The position numbers and the translations under genes were made by a program. The notes beneath the pieces were generated by a model. It was not told where the DNA came from, did not search any database, and saw only the letters and a list, made by a program, of their open reading frames with translations. 64,000 nucleotides of DNA. Origin: Monarcha castaneiventris obscurior. Lineage: Eukaryota > Chordata > Aves > Passeriformes > Monarchidae. Below, piece by piece: positions 23,690 through 64,000 of this stretch; within the stretch, counting starts at the first letter, position 1; every line of letters begins with the position of its first letter. Where the stretch lies: assembly GCA_026261815.1 (NCBI GenBank), contig JAMPIT010000269.1, positions 434,001-498,000 on the forward strand, in the 5' to 3' direction.

Positions 23690-45381
<21,692 letters not shown>

Positions 45382-50137: not shown

Positions 50138-50258
50138 TTAAGCCCAGTAGACGGGGAGGAGGCTGCAGAGGATGCTCGCAGTGGTGCCCAGGAGGGAGCC
50201 GTCAGCCACGGGCACGGAGATCCTGTCCTCAGCCTGGATGAAGAATCAGGGGGGATTC

Positions 50259-50306
<48 letters not shown>

Positions 50307-51627
50307 TTCATCTTCATCATTCCTCATCGCGGGGGGGGGCTGCACAAGGCTCTGAGCCCCCCACTCCCACCCTGCCCCAGCCCGGTCCTCACCTGCCGGC
50401 GCTGGAAGATCTCGACCACGGTGTCCAGCCCCGGGACGTTGTCCTTGTCCACCAGGGTCACGTAGCAGGCGCGGTGCCTCCGGGCTCTGTAGCTCACCAG
50501 CAGCTGTTGGAAGCCAGACCCGGCTCGGCTCCATCCCATCGCTCCCTCCCCGTCACCCCCAGGACCCCCCCCACTCACATTTTTATAGTCATAGATCACC
50601 GTGGCCGCGTTCCCGTCCCCGCTGTCCAGGTAGAAAGTGGCCGCGTCCTCTTCCCAAGCCGGTCCAGTCCCCAAAGCGCCCCGCAGGACCTGGAGTGGGG
50701 AGAGGGGGGGATCTCAACCCCTTCCCGTGGGCATCGGGGGGTCCTCACTGTCAGCACCGGGGGCTCCCCACTCACGGTGTCGGCGCGGTGCTGGCCAACG
50801 CTCAGCCACATCAGCAGGGCGCCGGCCACGATGACCACCAGCAGGACCACCACGACCACGGCGATGAGCAGGCAGCGGAGGCGGCCGCAGCTCAGCAGCT
50901 TGCGGGGCAGGTAGCAGAGCAGCCGAGGGACGAAGCACAGGGACTTCTTGAGGCAGCCACCGCAGCCGGGGCATTTGGGGCACCCGAGGCACTTGGGGCA
51001 TCCGAGGCACTTGGGGCACTTGGGGCAGCCGCAGCACTTGGGCAGGCAGCAGCACCGGGCGCATTTGGCGCAGCATTTGCTGCAGCACACGGTGCAGGGC
51101 AAGCAGCAGCCTGGGCAGCAGCAGCCGTTCCCCGAGTCCTGGGGGTGAGGGAAAGTTGGGGGGAGATGGGGTCAGTGGGGGGGAGATGGGGCCAGTGGGG
51201 TGGAGATGGGGTCAGTGGGGGGGAGATGGGGTCAGTGGGGTGGAGATGGGGTCAGTGGGGGGAGATGGGGTCAGTGAGGGAAGATGGGGTCAGTGGGGGG
51301 AAGATGGGGTCAGTGGCGGGGAGATGGGGTCAGTGGGGTGGAGATGGGGGTCAGTGGGGGAGAGATGGGGTCAGTGGAGTGGAGATGGGGTCAGTGGGGT
51401 GGAGATGGGACAGGGGGACGCGGGAGGTTGGGGGTGGGATTGCTGCAGGGAGCAGCTCTCATCCCGCTGCCCCCCAGCATCCCTTGGACATCCCACAGCC
51501 CAAATCCCCATCCCAGGCGCTGGTGCCTTGCTGGGATAAACTGGGCAAAGCCCCGTGCCCAGCTGGATGCCACCCTGCAGGGACTCACCTCCTCTTCAAG
51601 CACCACCTGCTTCATGCTGCTCTCCAT
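50138..51627 (-). CDS. SFTPC: SFTPC paralog A: proSP-C-like BRICHOS protein with a cysteine-rich N-terminal segment
   Basis: Surfactant protein C precursor family (type II membrane protein, lumenal BRICHOS). Exons: 51627-51589, 51138-50776, 50689-50579, 50503-50393, 50233-50138, all phase 0, 239 aa. Residues 1-13 (MESSMKQVVLEEE) are followed at about 19-75 by a segment with 25 Cys, including CCC runs and CPKCLG repeats. Next come juxtamembrane Cys (RKLLSCGRLRC) and the helix LLIAVVVVVLLVVIVAGALL (about 103-122), strongly like mature mammalian SP-C. The BRICHOS domain keeps its two Cys (about 184 in HRACYV and 231 in ILCSLLP) and ends PVYWA. A TATA box lies 88 bp upstream. Gene B, with the same exon plan, lies 2 kb upstream. 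The Cys-rich segment has no counterpart in the mammalian proSP-C I know; palmitoylation or metal binding is conjecture. Family membership is certain; orthology relative to gene B is not. Confidence 0.93.
50256..50320. repeat. (CAT)n microsatellite, last intron of SFTPC paralog A
   Basis: About 17 consecutive 'cat' triplets followed by 'cttcat' variants. Confidence 0.95.
51150..51415. repeat. Minisatellite, unit about 20 bp, first intron of SFTPC paralog A
   Basis: About 13 copies of 'gggggagatggggtcagt' lie just upstream (minus strand) of the cysteine-rich exon. Confidence 0.93.
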
Positions 51628-51714: not shown

Positions 51715-51721
51715 TTTTATA
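51715..51721 (-). promoter_or_regulatory. TATA box of SFTPC paralog A
   Basis: TATAAAA on the minus strand, 88 bp before the ATG. The interval holds a (GGA)n leader (plus-strand CTC run at 51633-51680). The flanking sequence resembles the TATA region of paralog B, supporting tandem duplication including the promoter. Confidence 0.75.
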
Positions 51722-51729
51722 CCGGGGCA

Positions 51730-53480
51730 CCGGGGTGGGGACCGGAGCGGCCCCTGTGAAGGGTTTGGTGGCCCCGGGGTGCAGCCTGGCCCTGGCATGT
51801 GACCCACTCCTCTCGTGTTTGCCAATCGCCCGCTCCCCGCTGGATCCTCCTGGGAACCTGCGGCTCGAGAGGCTCCGAGGGCACTGGGTCAAGGATCCTC
51901 ATCCCCAGGCACGGGGACTTCTCTGGTGCCCAGGAGCGAGGTGGCAGGGCCAAAGCAAACCCTCCAGGGTGGAGCATCCGGCCGTGGCGAGCCCTTGGCT
52001 CGTGTCCCTTGGCCAGCTCGGGCACCTGGAGCTGCTTGATGTGGCGAGGAACAAACAGGACATTCAAGAGTTCCTGTAATCCGCAGGGATGGGGCGGGAA
52101 CGGGGTCACCGTGGCGTGGGGAAGTGTCCCTGATCCTCATTTTTTGGTCCTGAGGGTGCTCAGACCCCGCTGCTGGTGGCTTTTGGGGCTGGCAGAGATG
52201 GGGCTGTGTGATCCCAGTAACACCAGCACCCCGCTCCTGACAACTCCCGATCCCACAGTGTGGATTTTTTTGGGGTGAGGGGGTTGTAACTCTGGCGTGT
52301 CCCCCTCAGGTGGCAGGGGGACGCTGCTGGGCCTTGGTTTTGCCCACCCACGAGCCCCTGCTGCAGCTGGGCTCAGGCTGGGACCCCTCTGGCCACCCCT
52401 GGGACCCCCAACACCCTCAGTGGGGTGCTGAGGGGTGAACGCTGCCTCCTTCCCCAGGGTGCCAAGGGCCACGAGAGCCCCGTGAGTGGCTCCTGGTTGT
52501 TTGTTCCCAGTCCCCGTGGGAGCTCCTAGCACCTTTCCTAGCCCTGGGCACCCTCTTGACCCAGCTCCTTATCACGGGCAGGGTTTTTTTTGGGAAGCAG
52601 AGCTGCTGGCTCCGAGTCAGCACACGGGGAACGTGCAGCGTCCCTCCTGTTCCCAGCAAAGTGTCACCCTGCTGTGACCCCCCCTCCTGTGCCCCTGGGG
52701 GTGGTTTTGGGGACAAAACCGAGTCTGCAGCCCTGGAAAGGTCAAATTTTTCCCCTCCCAGCCCCGCTGCTTCCCAATTTTTCAGCGCAGCACTTGAAAG
52801 CGGCCCCAAAGGTTGTTGCCAGAGGATGTGGGGCAAGAAGGGCTGGAAGGGATGGGAAAAAGGAGAGGGTGAGGATGGGGAGGGAGCTGGAGCAGGTGGA
52901 TCGTGGTGTCTGTGGATAACCCAGGGCTTGGCTGTCACGGGGGATGTGGCACAGTCCCAGGAGGGGACAGGGTTGGGAGCATTTCCCAGAGGCCTGGAAG
53001 TGCAGAGGTTGCTCCTTTCCACCTCACCCTCAGTCCTCCAAACGGGGAGGGCACAGATGGGGGGCACTGGGAGGGCACAGATGGGGGGCACTGGGAGGGC
53101 ACAGATGGGGGGTACTGGGGGCACTGGGAGGGCACAGATAGGGGGCACTGGGAGGGCACAGATGGGGGGCACTGGGGGCACTGGGAGGGCTCAGATCGGG
53201 GGCACTGGGAGGGCTCAGATGGGGGGCACTGGGAGGGCACTGGGAGGGAACTGGGAGGGCACAAATGGGGGCACTGGGAGCATCCTCTGCCATTGTTCTG
53301 CTGCCCCTCGTGTTTGATCCCTCCCAAGCTCCTCTCACCCCAAAGTGAGGGATTCCCCTCCCCACCCTGCACCCCACAAAGAGCCACCCTGGGCCACCCT
53401 GGGCCACCCTGGGCCACCCTGTCCCTGTCCCCATCAGCCCAGGAAGGACAGGAGCACCACGTGAAGGAGGGGGCACAAGG
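51730..53480. other. Spacer between the two SFTPC genes
   Basis: It contains a 24-bp minisatellite at 53035-53275 ('gggagggcacagatgggggg' plus 'cact') and otherwise unique sequence. No third BRICHOS gene or remnant exon was found. Confidence 0.6.
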
Positions 53481-53708: not shown

Positions 53709-54686
53709 CTAGGCCCAGAACACGGGCACGGCGCTGCAGAGGATGTTGATGGTGGTGCCCAGGATGGAGCGGTCAGCCAGGGGCACGGCCTCGTCCCCAG
53801 CGCCCTCATCCTGCCGGACAGAGAACAAAGCGATGATTTCCACCCTCAGAGGGGACAAACCCCCAACCTCACATTCCCCAGGGTGCAGGGGCTGGGCTGT
53901 GCCGAGCCCAGCGCGGCTCCAGCTCCATCCCAGCGGGATGGGCAGCGCTCACCTGCCGCCGCTGGAAGGTCTCGGTGACCGCATCCAGCCCCGGGAAGTT
54001 GTCCTTGTCCACGCGGGTGATGTAGCAGGCGCGGTGACGCCAGGACCTGTAGCCCACCAGCAGCTTTTTTGGGGACAGAGCGGGGTGAGCTCAGCTCAGC
54101 CCTGGCCCCGCAGCGCGTCCCCGGCTCCCCACGCACCTTGCCGTAGTCGTACACCACCGTGGCCGAGGCGTTGAGCCCCTCCCGCACCGCGAACGTCCCG
54201 GTCCTTTCCTTCTTGCTCACGGCGAGCTGCTGGGGGGTCCCCTCGCCATCCAGCCCCTGGATGGTCATCCGCAGCACCTGCCAGCGGGAGAGGGCTCAGG
54301 GAGCTCTGCGGGGCCCTAAACCCGTCCCTACAAAGCTCCGGCGTCATCCCAAATCCCCCTCCCGGAGCCGGGTCCCTGCCGGGCCTCACCGTCTCGGCGT
54401 GGGACTCGCTGAGGTGCAGCCCCAGCAGCAGGAAGGTGACGTTGACCACCACGAGGGCCACCAGCACCAGCACCGCCATCAGCAGGAGGCTCCTGAGCTC
54501 GTGGGGGATGCAGGGCAGGCGCGGGGACTCGGTGTACCTCTGGTGGGGGACACAGGGCAGTGCCCGGCTGAGCTGCCAGGGCTCGGGGGTGGCAGCGGGG
54601 GCTCGGCCTCACGCCCGGGGTGGGTGCTGGGTGCTCCTTACCGGAGGTGCCTCCTCCATCAGCGCCTCTTTGGAGCTGTCGTCCAT
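53709..54686 (-). CDS. SFTPC: SFTPC paralog B: proSP-C-like BRICHOS protein without Cys-rich segment
   Basis: Exons: 54686-54642, 54539-54390, 54277-54137, 54063-53953, 53810-53709, all phase 0, 182 aa (human proSP-C 191-197). It begins MDDSSKEALMEEAPP, like human MDVGSKEVLMESPP. One Cys (about 25) precedes a hydrophobic segment at about 33-55 (MAVLVLVALVVVNVTFLLLG) that lacks the long valine run and contains an Asn. The linker GLHLSESHAETVLRMTI is very close to the mammalian one. The BRICHOS domain has Cys at about 125 (HRACYI) and 174 (ILCSAVP), a possible N-glycosylation site NAS at about 101, and ends PVFWA. The exon 4 acceptor is unusual: its AG follows an A-run rather than pyrimidines. 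A TATA box lies 47 bp upstream. Overall it looks like the canonical SFTPC in linker and N-terminus but not in the helix. Confidence 0.93.
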
Positions 54687-54732: not shown

Positions 54733-54739
54733 TTTTATA
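54733..54739 (-). promoter_or_regulatory. TATA box of SFTPC paralog B
   Basis: TATAAAA on the minus strand, 47 bp before the ATG, preceded by a 'ggatcc' context. Sequence between TATA and ATG ('cagcccgaggccaggggg' on plus) resembles that of paralog A. Confidence 0.75.
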
Positions 54740-55606: not shown

Positions 55607-58600
55607 ATGGAGCTGCGGCGCGGGAGGAGGATGCTGAGGGACCAGCTCCTCGCTCGCCTCCTCCTCCTCCTCCTCCTCGCCGTGGCCTGCCTCTGGCAGC
55701 CGGCGGAGGGGCGGCGACCCCCCCGGCCTCCCCCTTGCCCCCCGACCTGCTCCTGCACCCGGGACACGGCTTTTTGCGTGGACTCCAAGGCTGTGCCCAA
55801 GAACCTGCCCCCCGAGGTCATCTCGCTGTGAGTAGCCGGGCTGGGCACAGGGATGGGCACAGGGATGGGCACAGGGATGGGCACAGCTTCACACGCCAGG
55901 AGCGCGGGGCTGGCAGGGGCTGCTGAGGGGGGCAGGAACAGCCCCTGCGTGGGGCAAACGCGTGGCACGGCTGGCTGCGGGCAGTGTGGGGGGCTCTGGG
56001 GAAAGGAGGAGGCTGGGCACAGCCCCGGGACCCGTCCCTGCGCCCTGCGGTGCTGGCACACGCAGCCATCCATCAGTGCCAGGCGGAGCAGGGCTGCAGC
56101 CCGTCCCCGCCGCCACCTTGGCCACCGCAAGCCCGAGGGGACACCGATGTGACCTTGGGGGCCGTAGAGCCCAGGGGGACACCCTTGGGGGGGTCTCTGG
56201 GGGCGCGGCGGCTCCCCGGAGCCTGGCACGGGGGGGTTGTGGGGCAGCTGTGTGTGTTGGCACCTGCGGGCGTGTGTTGGCACAGGCGTTCGCGTGTGTT
56301 TACACACTCGTGTGCACGCATGGCCGCGGGCCAGGGGCTGCCGCAGGGCGTGGGCAGCGCGGGGTGGGCGCCAGCCCCCTGCTCCTCGTCCCCTCCGTGT
56401 CCCCCTTGGCGCTTGGGGGTCTCTCTGCCACCTCCCAAGTCGCCTCCGGGGCTGGCAGGGGGTGGCACAGGGCTGGTGCTGGGGGGGGGCACGGGGGTGG
56501 CAGTGCCAGGCTGCTGAAGCTCCGTGTCTCCGGCAGGACCATGGTGAACGCAGCCTTCACCGAGATCCGGGAGGCGGCTTTCGCCCACATCCCCTCCCTG
56601 CAGTTCCTGTAGGTCTCCCGTGCCCCCCAACCCCCGGGGCCGGGCATCCCGGTGCTGCCCTGGGTGCCCACCGTGCCCACCGCGCCCACAGCCCGGCGCT
56701 GACGCCTTCCCCTGCTCTCTCTCTCTCTCTCTCTCTTTGCAGCCTCCTCAACTCCAACAAGTTCACGCTGATCGGGGACAACGCCTTCGCCGGGCTCTCG
56801 CACCTGCAGTACCTGTGTGTGGCATGGGGGCACGGAGGGCACACGGGGGGCACACGGAGGGCACACGGAGGGCACAGGGAGGGCACACGGAGGGCACGGA
56901 GGGCACAGAGAGGGCACACGGAGGGCACACGGGGGGCACACGGGGGGCACACGGACGGCACAGGGAGGGCACACGGAGGGCACACGGGGGGCACACGGAG
57001 GGCACAGAGAGGGCACACGGAGGGCACAAGGAGGGCACACGGAGGGCACAGAGAGGGCACACGGGGGGCACAGGGAGGGCACACGGAGGACACAGGGAGG
57101 GCACACGGAGGGCACACGGAGGGCACACGGAGGGCACACGGAGGGCACACGGAGGGCACAGGTGGGACCCTCGGGACGGTTCTGTCACTATCTGCTCCCG
57201 TTCCAGGTTCATCGAGAACAACGACATCCAGGCGCTTTCCAAGGGCACTTTCCGGGGGCTCAAGTCCCTGACGCACCTGTGAGCATTTGGGGGGCACGGC
57301 GGGGGTGGCCCCGACCCTTCCTGGCCACCCAGGGACGTGTCACCCCCAAAACCCTTCTTGTCCTCCAGGTCCTTGGCCAACAACAACCTGCAGACGCTGC
57401 CTCGGGACCTCTTCAAGCCGCTGGACATCCTGAGTGACCTGTGAGGCTGCCACGGCACCGGGGGCACCGGGCTGGGGAGAGGGTGATGTTTTTGTGGGTG
57501 CTGGGGGGTGACTCGGTGCCATCCCTGAGAGGGTGACATTTTTGTGGGTGCTGGGAGTGACTCGGTGCCATCCCTGGCAGGGAGGGACCCCCAGGACATC
57601 GAGCTGGGGAGAGGGTAACGTTTTTGTGGGTGACTCGGTGCCATCCCTGGCAAGAACCCCCAAGACACGGAGTTGGGGAGAGGGTGACATTTTTGTGGGT
57701 GACTCGGTGCCATCCCTGGCAAGAAGCGTCCCAGGACACCGGGCTGGGGAGAGGGTGACGTTTTTGTGGGTGCTGGGGGGTGACTCGGTGCCATCCCTGG
57801 CATGGAACTCCCCAGGACACGGAGTTGGGGAGAGGGTGACATTTTTGTGGGTGACTCGGTGCCATCCCTGAGATGGTGACATTTTTGTGGGTGCTGGGGG
57901 GTGACTCGGTGCCATCCCTGGCAAGAACCCCCGCAGGACACCAGGCTGGGGAGAGGGTGACTTTTTTTGGGTGCTGGGGGGTGACTCGGTGCCATCCCTG
58001 AGAGGGTGACATTTTTGTGGGTGCTGGGGGGTGACTCGGTGCCATCCCTGGAAGAACCCCCAGGACACAGAGTTGGGGAGAGGGTGACATTTTTGTGGGT
58101 GACTCGGTGCCACCCTTGGCATGGAACTCCCCAGGACACGGAGTTAGGGAGAGGGTGACATTTTTGTGGGTGCTCAGGGTGATTCCGTGCCATCCCTGGC
58201 AGGGACCTGCGTGGCAACACGCTGGCCTGCGACTGCAAGATCAAGTGGTTGGTGGAGTGGCTGGAGAGCACCAACACCACGGTCCCCGCCGTCTTCTGCA
58301 GCAGCCCCGGGCAGTTCGAGGGACAGCGGATCCGGGACCTGGCGCTCAGCGACTTCCAGTGCATCACCACAGGTAAAGGAACACCTCCCACCTCTCACCT
58401 CTCACCTCTCTCACTTTTCACCTCACTCCTGCGTGTCCAGACCCTCACCGCCGCCTCTCCCCGCTCCAGATTTCGTCATGCACCAGGTCCTGCCCTTCCA
58501 GGCGGTGTCAGCCGAGCCCTTCACCTACGCCAGTGACCTGTACGTGGCCCTGGCGCAGCCCAGCGCCAGCAGCTGCTCCATCCTCAAGTGGGACTACGTG

Positions 58601-59535
58601 GAGCGCAAACTCCGCGACTTCGACCGCATCCCCGGTGAGGAATCCTGAGCTGGGACCCCCTTTTTGGGGTGAGCCGGGGCGGGCAGAGCCCCCGATGTGA
58701 CGCGGTTTTGTCGGCAGCTCACTCGGCGGTGCACTGCAAGCCCATCGTGGCTCAGGAGCAGCTCTACGTGGTGGTGGCTCAGCTTTTCGGCGGCTCCTAC
58801 ATTTACCGCTGGGACACGGCCGTGGACAAATTCATCAAGATCCAGGACATCGACAGCCAGAAAATCCGCAAGCCCAACGACATCGAGGCTTTCCAGATCG
58901 AGGGCGATTGGTACTTTGTCATCGCCGACAGCTCCAAGGCGGGCTCCACCAGCCTCTACCGCCTCAACCAGAACGGGTTTTACTCCCACCAAGCCCTGCA
59001 CGCCTGGCACCGAGACACCGACGTGGAATACGTGGAAAACGACGGGAAACCGCGGCTCATCATCTCCAGCAGCTCCCAGGCTCCCGTCATCTACCAGTGG
59101 AGCCGCTCGCAGAAGCAATTCGTGCCTCAGGGCGAGGTGGGCGAGATGCTGGACGTGCAGATGGTCAAACACTTCAAAGGCAAGCGGGACCAGTTCCTGT
59201 GCCTGAGCCGCTACATCGGCGACTCCAAGGTGGTGCGCTGGGAAGGGCAGCGCTTCGTCGAGGTGCAGACGCTGCCCTCGAGGGGCTCCATGGTGATGCA
59301 GCCCTTCTCCGTGGGGCAGCGGCGGTACCTGGCGCTGGGCAGCGACTTCTCCTTCACCCACGTCTACCTGTGGGAAGAGGAGAAGCAGAAATTCGCCAAG
59401 TTCCAGGAGCTGTCGGTGCAGGCGCCGCGGGCGTTCCGGGCTGTGCCGGCGGCCGATGTGCAGCTTCTGCTGGCGCCCAGCTTCAAAGCCAACACCTTGG
59501 TGTACAGGCACGTGGTGGTGGACCTCAGCCTGTAG
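55607..59535 (+). CDS. LGI3: LGI3, leucine-rich glioma-inactivated family member 3
   Basis: Secreted LRR/EPTP glycoprotein that binds ADAM22-type receptors at neuronal and other membranes. Exons: 55607-55827, 56537-56608, 56743-56814, 57207-57278, 57369-57440, 58203-58372, 58470-58634, 58718-59535, in phase, 553 aa (human 548). A signal peptide with a Leu-rich core ([14 protein letters not shown]) is followed by an LRRNT cysteine cap ([14 protein letters not shown]) ending about residue 74. Four LRRs follow, each on its own 72-nt exon, as in all LGI genes, then LRRCT (about 170-226, [13 protein letters not shown]). The seven-bladed EPTP propeller occupies 227-553 ([34 protein letters not shown], ending [10 protein letters not shown]). 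The start is the ATG at 55607. Minisatellites lie in introns 3 and 5 and in the 3' UTR. It is transcribed away from SFTPC and toward REEP4. Confidence 0.97.
56818..57165. repeat. Minisatellite, 11-bp unit, LGI3 intron 3
   Basis: About 30 copies of 'cacacggaggg' or 'cacagggaggg' begin right after the exon 3 donor at 56815. Confidence 0.95.
57475..58200. repeat. Minisatellite carrying copies of the LGI3 exon 6 acceptor context
   Basis: Units of about 60-110 bp combine 'gggtgacatttttgtgggtg', 'gggtgactcggtgccatcc' and 'ctggcaagaacccccagg'. The real acceptor of exon 6 (AG at 58201-58202) lies in the last unit ('gtgccatccctggcag'). One internal unit keeps the same 'ccctggcag' (AG at 57579-57580). 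Confidence 0.93.
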
Positions 59536-62679: not shown

Positions 62680-63941
62680 ATGGTGTCCTGGATCCTCAGC
62701 CGGGTGATTGAGTGAGTGGGGTCCGCGCGGGGTAACGGGGGAGGGGCTGCAGGGCTGCGGTGCCCCCCCGGGGGGGGTCAAAAAGGGGTCCCTGACCCCC
62801 TGTTCCCCCTCAGGGTATTCCATCAGTGGGGTCCCCGTGATGGGCAGGCAGCGGGGACTCCGCGGAGAGGCCCCAGGAGGGGTTTGGAGGGGGCGACCCC
62901 AAATTTCTTATGGGGGGGGTAACCAGCAGCCCCCCTCCCCCCACCCCTTCCCCTAAATCCGCCACCCCCCCCAAAAAAGGGGGTCCCTGAACTGCTGCTG
63001 GCTCGCCCTGCTCGTCCTGGGGAGGGTGAGCACGGCCTGGGGTCCCCCTGCATCACCCATGGGTGGGAGGGGTCCCTGCATCATCTTGGGGGTCCCTCTG
63101 CATCACCCATGGGTGGGGGTCCCTGCATCATCTTGAGGGTCCCTGCACCAGCGCGGGGGTCCCTGCATCACCCATGGGTGGGGGGGCAACTCGGGGGTCC
63201 CTGCATCAGCTCAGGGGTCCCTGCATCATCTTGGGGGTCCCTCTGCATCACCCATGGGTGGGGGTCCCTGCGCCAGCTCGGGGTCCCTGCATCACCCATG
63301 GGTGGGGAGGGGGGTCTCTCCATCATCTTGGGGGTCCCTGCATCACCCGTGGGTGGGGGGGCAACTCGGGGGTCCCTGCATCATCTTGGGGGTCCCTGCA
63401 TCACCCATGGGTGGGGGTCCCTGCATCATCTCGGGGTCCCTGCATCAGCTCGGGGGTCCCTGCAGCACCCATGGGTGGGGGGGATCCCTGCTCCCAGAGC
63501 CTCCCCAGGACACACGGGGTGCGTTTTTGGGGCTCACCCCTCACCCCGTGCCCCGGCCGGAGCTTGGCACTGCCACTCCGGGGACGGAGCCTGCGGGCAC
63601 CGAGCCCGTGCCCTGCCACCCCCCCTTGCCCTACCCTACCCTACCCCGACAGGTCGGGCCGGTCCCGGGGACGTGGGAGCGACGCCGAGCTCATGGCTGA
63701 GCCTCCCCGGAGCCTCCCGGAGCCTTTTCCCGGCCTCTCCGGGCTCGGCATGCTGCTGGAAGGGCTCAGGGGCAGGGTCCGGCGCTGGGGCCGAAAGCTC
63801 TGCTGCTCCCTGTTCCTGCTGCTCTACGCGTGCTGGCCCGGCTGCCTCACCCCCCCTCTGCCCTACAGGCTGCTTTTTGGGATGCTCTACCCGGCCTACG
63901 CGTCCTACAAGGCTGTGAAGACGAAAAACATCCGGGAATAT
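62680..63941 (+). CDS. REEP4: REEP4, receptor expression-enhancing protein 4, first two coding exons
   Basis: ER membrane-shaping, microtubule-binding protein of the REEP1-4 group, known to clear ER from mitotic chromosomes. Exon 1 is 62680-62711 ([10 protein letters not shown] and two bases of the next codon). Exon 2 is 63869-63941 and encodes [20 protein letters not shown] followed by IREY. It leads to a gtgagt donor, with the rest beyond the right edge. The MVSW start and the [13 protein letters not shown] hairpin motif identify REEP3/4, and position next to LGI3 favours REEP4. ATG context gccATGG is strong. The intron holds a minisatellite at 63040-63485. Confidence 0.93.
63040..63485. 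repeat. Minisatellite, REEP4 intron 1
   Basis: Units made of 'gggggtccctgcatcaccca' with 'tgggtgggg' and 'tcatcttgggggtccctgc', with irregular lengths. Confidence 0.92.
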
Positions 63942-64000
63942 GTGAGTGGAGTGCTTGGGGAGCCCTTCCTGGGTTCCAGTGCCCCTTTCCTGGGCTCCAG

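Follow-up and report, generated by a model that had tools for sequence, protein, structure and literature searches.

Two SFTPC-type genes, referred to here as gene A and gene B, lie in tandem on the minus strand of the window (the whole stretch of 64,000 nucleotides analysed). Gene A comprises five exons, all of phase 0 and with AG/GT intron borders, which together form an open reading frame of 239 amino acids. A TATA box (51716..51721) precedes its ATG by 94 nt, and exon 1 (51589..51627; MESSMKQVVLEEE) ends at a GTGAGT donor, with residues M1, K6 and E12 invariant in a 20-row alignment. Exon 2 (50776..51138, 363 nt), bordered by AG on one side and GTGAGT on the other, encodes three elements in succession: a cysteine block with 25 Cys in 57 residues that is conserved in birds (residues 19-75; 50953..51123), a juxtamembrane motif with four further Cys (CFVPRLLCYLPRKLLSCGRLRC, residues 81-102; 50872..50937) and a poly-Val transmembrane helix (residues 103-123; 50809..50871). 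The block is the 5' part of this exon, between the splice acceptor and the mature-SP-C-like part, rather than an added exon. Exon 3 (50579..50689) contributes a linker and the start of the BRICHOS domain, exon 4 (50393..50503) continues the domain with C184, and exon 5 (50138..50233) supplies its end, C231 and the stop codon. In all, the protein has 31 Cys, 29 before the helix and two, C184 and C231, after it. An earlier note on this DNA had placed the Cys-rich exon at exactly these coordinates and counted the same 25 Cys in 57 residues; its further claims, that more Cys and a poly-Val helix follow and that the exon is spliced to BRICHOS exons, agree with the four juxtamembrane Cys, the helix position, the intact frame and the splice sites. 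Two repeats were seen in the introns, a minisatellite of about 13 copies of a 20 bp unit in intron 1 (51154-51409) and a stretch of (TCA)n in intron 4 (50260-50320).

Pfam assigns the gene A protein to the surfactant protein C family, as had been proposed, since both SP_C-Propep (residues 99-142, 33.7 bits) and BRICHOS (residues 160-238, 47.1 bits) exceed the cut-off of 25; a third match falls far under its own cut-off. A search of the PDB (E<=0.001) returned three sequences, every one an SP-C BRICHOS. The hallmark of the BRICHOS superfamily, an invariant Asp and two Cys according to the available text of PMC2751770, is present as D168, C184 and C231, which are invariant in a 74-row alignment from which chicken isoform X2 (P0055) was left out. 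In that chicken isoform of the paralog, exon 4 is apparently skipped and one BRICHOS Cys (C184) is missing with it. AlphaFold, run with 20 sequences, gave a mean pLDDT of 46; residues 101-120 reached 87 and 92, and the model supports only the helix, the one part modelled confidently.

Gene B (53709..54686), some 2 kb upstream of gene A and likewise on the minus strand, is by Pfam an ordinary SFTPC of 182 amino acids with three Cys and a PPRY motif. It too has five phase 0 exons (54642-54686, 54390-54539, 54137-54277, 53953-54063 and 53709-53810). Its TATA box (54734..54739) stands 53 nt before the ATG, and the TATA stretches of the two genes agree at 13 of 14 nt. When 600 bp upstream were scanned for NKX2-1-like, GATA and FOXA words, one FOXA-like word per gene was found and nothing else. 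The poly-Val helix is degraded in exon 2 of gene B (LLLMAVLVLVALVVVNV) but stays poly-Val in gene A; degraded helices also occur in the ordinary SFTPC of tinamous and some other birds, and mean pairwise helix identity is 0.69 across 14 bird B rows versus 0.87 across 25 bird A rows. A second minisatellite lies between the two genes (53045-53280). The A/B pair itself sits between an astacin zinc motif at 33544 on the minus strand, assigned to the BMP1 type by motif search, and plus-strand reading frames at 58148-59532 that Pfam identifies as EPTP repeats of the LGI family and that have their best PDB matches to LGI1. Mammals have a BMP1-SFTPC-LGI3 neighbourhood, which the window locus fits. Two further candidate flanking frames, 56168-57268 and 63030-63998, gave no Pfam match (E<=0.01 for the latter); the second, on the plus strand, resembles REEP4 by eye.

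Protein database searches, one of which was limited to the 8000 candidates with the most words in common, yielded 128 clusters, and 52 of these have a Cys block, defined as at least eight Cys within a 30-residue stretch. On sequence comparison, this recurrence rules out a spurious reading frame. Block-bearing clusters come from neognath and palaeognath birds (songbirds, suboscines, falcon, parrot, hummingbirds, cuckoos, owl, penguin, crane, duck, chicken, kiwi, emu, rhea and tinamou), three turtles (P0087-P0089) and four squamates (P0085, P0097, P0099 and P0100). The block is missing from the one crocodilian cluster found (P0092, 5 members) and from the eight mammal clusters found (P0115, P0116, P0118-P0121, P0126 and P0128), statements that refer to protein clusters and not to genomes. 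A comparison of the kind that the earlier note had proposed thus shows the block in birds, turtles and squamates but not in the sole crocodilian cluster, and the note's statement that it knew of no mammalian counterpart holds among these hits. Across 37 rows (36 database proteins and the window), 36 could be measured and carry 14-34 Cys before the helix; the Patagioenas row was missed by the pattern used, though its block is visible. Some models otherwise like gene A have no block, among them P0031, P0033, P0038, P0040, P0052 and P0096, by truncation, skipping of the block, an annotation gap or an alternative acceptor. In P0058 (Corvus isoform X2), P0062 (Rhynochetos) and P0009 (Columba, a full fusion), gene B exons appear by eye to be joined to gene A exons, through either read-through splicing or annotation error. 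Turtles also have a third, diverged SFTPC-like protein devoid of a Cys block (P0122, P0123, P0125 and P0127).

Indirect signs of transcription come from two sources. P0002 is a complete spliced ORF of 244 amino acids for which the longest contig is 957 bp, the ATG-to-stop span in the window being 1490 bp; it was probably assembled from RNA, the alternative being an intron-less retrocopy. In the accessible part of one duck ovary RNA-seq study (PMC10887599), a table gives values of 7.78 and 0.33 for LOC110354773 'SP-C-like' and of 6.33 and 0.21 for SFTPC, so that the two vary together there; we take LOC110354773 to be the Cys paralog because of its name and of the Oxyura protein P0035. That the ovary signal reflects adhering air-sac tissue is speculation. 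The gene goes unmentioned in the available portions of two reviews on the lung and a single-cell study of chicken (PMC3502106, PMC3591247 and PMC10593216), and likewise in those of a frog lung paper (PMC11139932).

To place the duplication, a main tree was built from the helix onward, with the Cys block excluded, for 58 hand-picked rows: 32 Cys paralogs (one from window A, the others from 31 of the 52 block-bearing clusters), 24 ordinary SP-Cs and two turtle third paralogs as outgroup. All the Cys paralogs group together in a single clade (support 94/84) and sauropsid SFTPC in a second (84/79), with mammals placed outside the two (96/77). A tree restricted to the helix and exon 3 (57 rows) again gives the Cys clade with an SH-aLRT of 96, albeit from only 84 columns, while with exons 4-5 alone (69 columns) A and B mix, with 6 and 8 label changes instead of 1. 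This mixing has a local counterpart. In exon 4 of Rhea, A and B are alike at 35 of 37 residues, versus 18 of 47 in exon 3, and Rhea A resembles Balearica A at only 23 of 37 exon 4 residues; in exon 5 the order is the reverse, with 17 of 31 alike between Rhea A and B and 24 of 31 between Rhea A and Balearica A. The window shows a weak signal of the same kind in exon 4 (A-B 28/37, A-Balearica A 25/37). Judged from these identities, exon 4 (50393-50503 in A, 53953-54063 in B), but not exon 5, looks like the target of gene conversion in some birds and has apparently been homogenised between the genes. Gene A is a tandem SFTPC paralog whose origin probably goes back at least to the last ancestor shared by today's sauropsids. 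This dating is tentative, since AU tests reject neither a grouping of mammals with the Cys paralogs (p-AU 0.349) nor one with ordinary SP-C (p-AU 0.331). The duplication could thus predate sauropsids, mammals having lost the gene; the former grouping, which would make the Cys gene, whose helix ends in GALLM like that of mammals, and not the annotated sauropsid SFTPC the ortholog of mammalian SFTPC, is not the best tree.

The surplus Cys are distributed very unevenly about the membrane. Across the 32 paralogs, 12-34 Cys precede the helix and 2-3 follow it, Falco having a further one within it, and the net charge over 15 residues is +3 to +5 before the helix and -2 to +2 after it; for window A it is +4 over the residues preceding the helix. 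The surplus is therefore predicted to lie entirely on the cytosolic side, in agreement with the type II logic advanced previously. All 32 share the juxtamembrane pattern [FCS][LV]P[RKG][LM]L, followed by LP[RK] in the printed rows, and the ancestral Cys positions align, as in turtle LPCCPLHIKR and platypus IPCCPFHLKR. The paralogs differ in one further respect. NEDD4-2 acts on proSP-C through PPxY, a motif that 23 of the 24 ordinary SP-C rows carry, versus 1 of 32 Cys paralogs. An N-terminal PPxY is absent from window A, from all 25 bird rows (of which two have no proper N-terminus) and from four squamates (Zootoca alone having a plausible start), the N-termini of Apteryx, Oxyura, Rhineura, Varanus and the split Phrynocephalus model being incomplete or doubtful; one of the three turtle Cys paralogs has PPHY and the other two PLHY. 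Because PPxY is absent, gene A is filed here as an SP-C paralog and not as SFTPC itself.

The block itself averages 41% Cys, 11% Pro, 10% Gly, 8% Lys and 8% Ser over all rows, with LIVMFW at about 9% (0-2 such residues in each squamate). Its Cys fraction is 35-55% at every length, from 15 to 71 residues. In birds, spacing is largely fixed (CxxCCxKC...CC.P.CC), and in 21 of 25 bird rows the 21 Cys-consensus columns have a mean identity of 98% versus 79% for the 43 other columns between them, a contrast somewhat flattered by the tendency of aligners to stack Cys; Apteryx, Oxyura, Dromaius and Nothoprocta, whose N-termini are unusual or highly divergent, and columns with more than 20% gaps were dropped. 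The underlying DNA is partly repetitive, with periods of 9, 18, 27 and 45 bp within 50962-51074, so that tandem duplication probably enlarged the block.

What might such a segment do? The mechanism we favour, at about even chances, is that of a membrane-apposed cysteine string that is S-acylated and enlarges the two palmitoylated Cys of SP-C. Ordinary proSP-C is, according to the excerpts available of preprint PMC12621905, a type II protein with a cytosolic N-terminus that is palmitoylated in the Golgi; a figure legend in PMC7279303 describes the palmitoylated N-terminal Cys of SP-C as inserting into packed film regions, and the accessible text of PMC7181726 has proSP-C trafficking directed by NEDD4-2. 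Exon 2 of gene A places a string rich in Cys, Pro and Gly after the N-terminal segment and ahead of the mature SP-C peptide, and in a type II precursor this string would lie in the cytosol against the membrane, next to a conserved motif of the PRLLCxLPRKL type, with the poly-Val helix crossing the membrane and the lumenal BRICHOS domain serving as intramolecular chaperone. Golgi acyltransferases could then palmitoylate many of the string's Cys, enlarging the ancestral two-Cys site. The resulting multi-acylated SP-C-like lipopeptide or lipoprotein would travel to lamellar bodies independently of a PPxY signal, and there might tie surfactant lamellae together. An enlarged acylation platform is the simplest account of surplus Cys at SP-C's own place and on the same side, although the bird Cys spacing is more fixed than a loose string needs and the block holds few hydrophobic residues. 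A bolder version, which we regard as conceivable but doubtful, is that sauropsids have a hyper-acylated second SP-C, with at least a dozen palmitates on its cytosol-facing string, which staples several lamellae and has taken over the role of SP-C in songbirds like this one, where the ordinary helix is no longer largely poly-Val.

The CxxC spacing and the positional conservation in birds make metal binding the main rival. Here the string would be a membrane-tethered cytosolic metal-thiolate segment that buffers zinc or copper or folds a small zinc module. CxxC outnumbers CC in 19 of 32 rows, with ties in 3, Lys or Arg stand between the Cys, and the 25 bird blocks contain no acidic residue and 0-2 His each. 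However, CC outnumbers CxxC in 10 of the 32 rows, Cys number ranges from 9 to 30 in bird blocks, spacing differs in turtles and squamates, and no metallothionein or zinc-finger match was found in Pfam at E<=1, so that we consider this reading unlikely, if well worth weighing. The string could also act as a cross-linker through thiols or disulfides; kept reduced inside the cell, it would oxidise after exocytosis to yield a sulfur-bridged network in the surfactant film, an idea we rate as rather improbable. Ordinary SP-C is secreted, and the block, rich in C, P, G, K and S, recalls other Cys/Pro/Gly-rich cross-linked proteins; in mammalian SP-C, however, the N-terminal propeptide is cut off before secretion. 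The earlier note had preferred acylation or metal binding to disulfides, and the confinement of the Cys to the positive N-flank, with the lumenal side unchanged, favours that preference indirectly; secretion would take the segment out of the reducing cytosol, so that disulfides could then form.

Two further readings deny the block a function or an existence. Repeat drift tolerated in a part that is cleaved and degraded, with only the helix and BRICHOS mattering, would fit the 9-45 bp repeats beneath the block and its wide range of lengths. Yet the near-invariance of the Cys columns relative to those between them, a Cys fraction held within the same bounds in all 32 rows and retention of the block in birds, turtles and squamates speak against drift, and we judge it quite improbable. 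Repetitive GC-rich DNA is error-prone, but no specific support was found for an assembly artefact, pseudogene or spurious frame, and the intact frame and splice sites, the relatives in many species and their independent assemblies, and the spliced ORF on a short contig together leave this explanation a negligible likelihood. The product of gene A is probably a heavily lipid-decorated surfactant protein.

Whether the gene had been described in birds was left open by the earlier note. It is annotated there, as 'SP-C-like' or, in chicken (LOC107050901), as 'uncharacterized', names that appear to be automatic; we found no description of a Cys-string paralog among the literature matches listed, a scope outside which most subscription journals fall. 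Most work on SP-C concerns mammals, in which its lipid anchor consists of just two palmitates. A conserved paralog that carries 12-34 same-side Cys raises the question of how the amount of acylation relates to sorting and film structure, gene A offers a natural proSP-C devoid of the PPxY motif, and its product is a possible surfactant component of bird and reptile lungs that is seemingly missing in mammals.

Among known systems, ordinary SP-C is the closest, sharing SP_C-Propep and BRICHOS, five phase 0 exons, a poly-Val helix with a positive N-flank, the BRICHOS Asp and two Cys, and the locus. It has, however, 1-2 Cys before the helix as against 12-34 in the paralog, whose bird rows have no PPxY and whose helix in birds mostly ends in GALLMWL. 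The salamander SFTPC-like protein is likewise a diverged SFTPC paralog, but is termed salamander-specific in PMC6191699, in whose main text, as available, the word 'cysteine' does not occur; the comparison is by description only. A relation between this protein and the third SFTPC-like protein of turtles is possible. Metallothioneins have a similarly high Cys fraction with Lys and CxxC, whereas the paralog gave no Pfam match to them at E<=1 and its Cys number and spacing are not kept across sauropsids. The cysteine-string protein DNAJC5 also carries dense cytosolic Cys near the membrane; unlike it, the gene A protein has no J-domain match in Pfam at E<=1, and its string is attached to a transmembrane helix.
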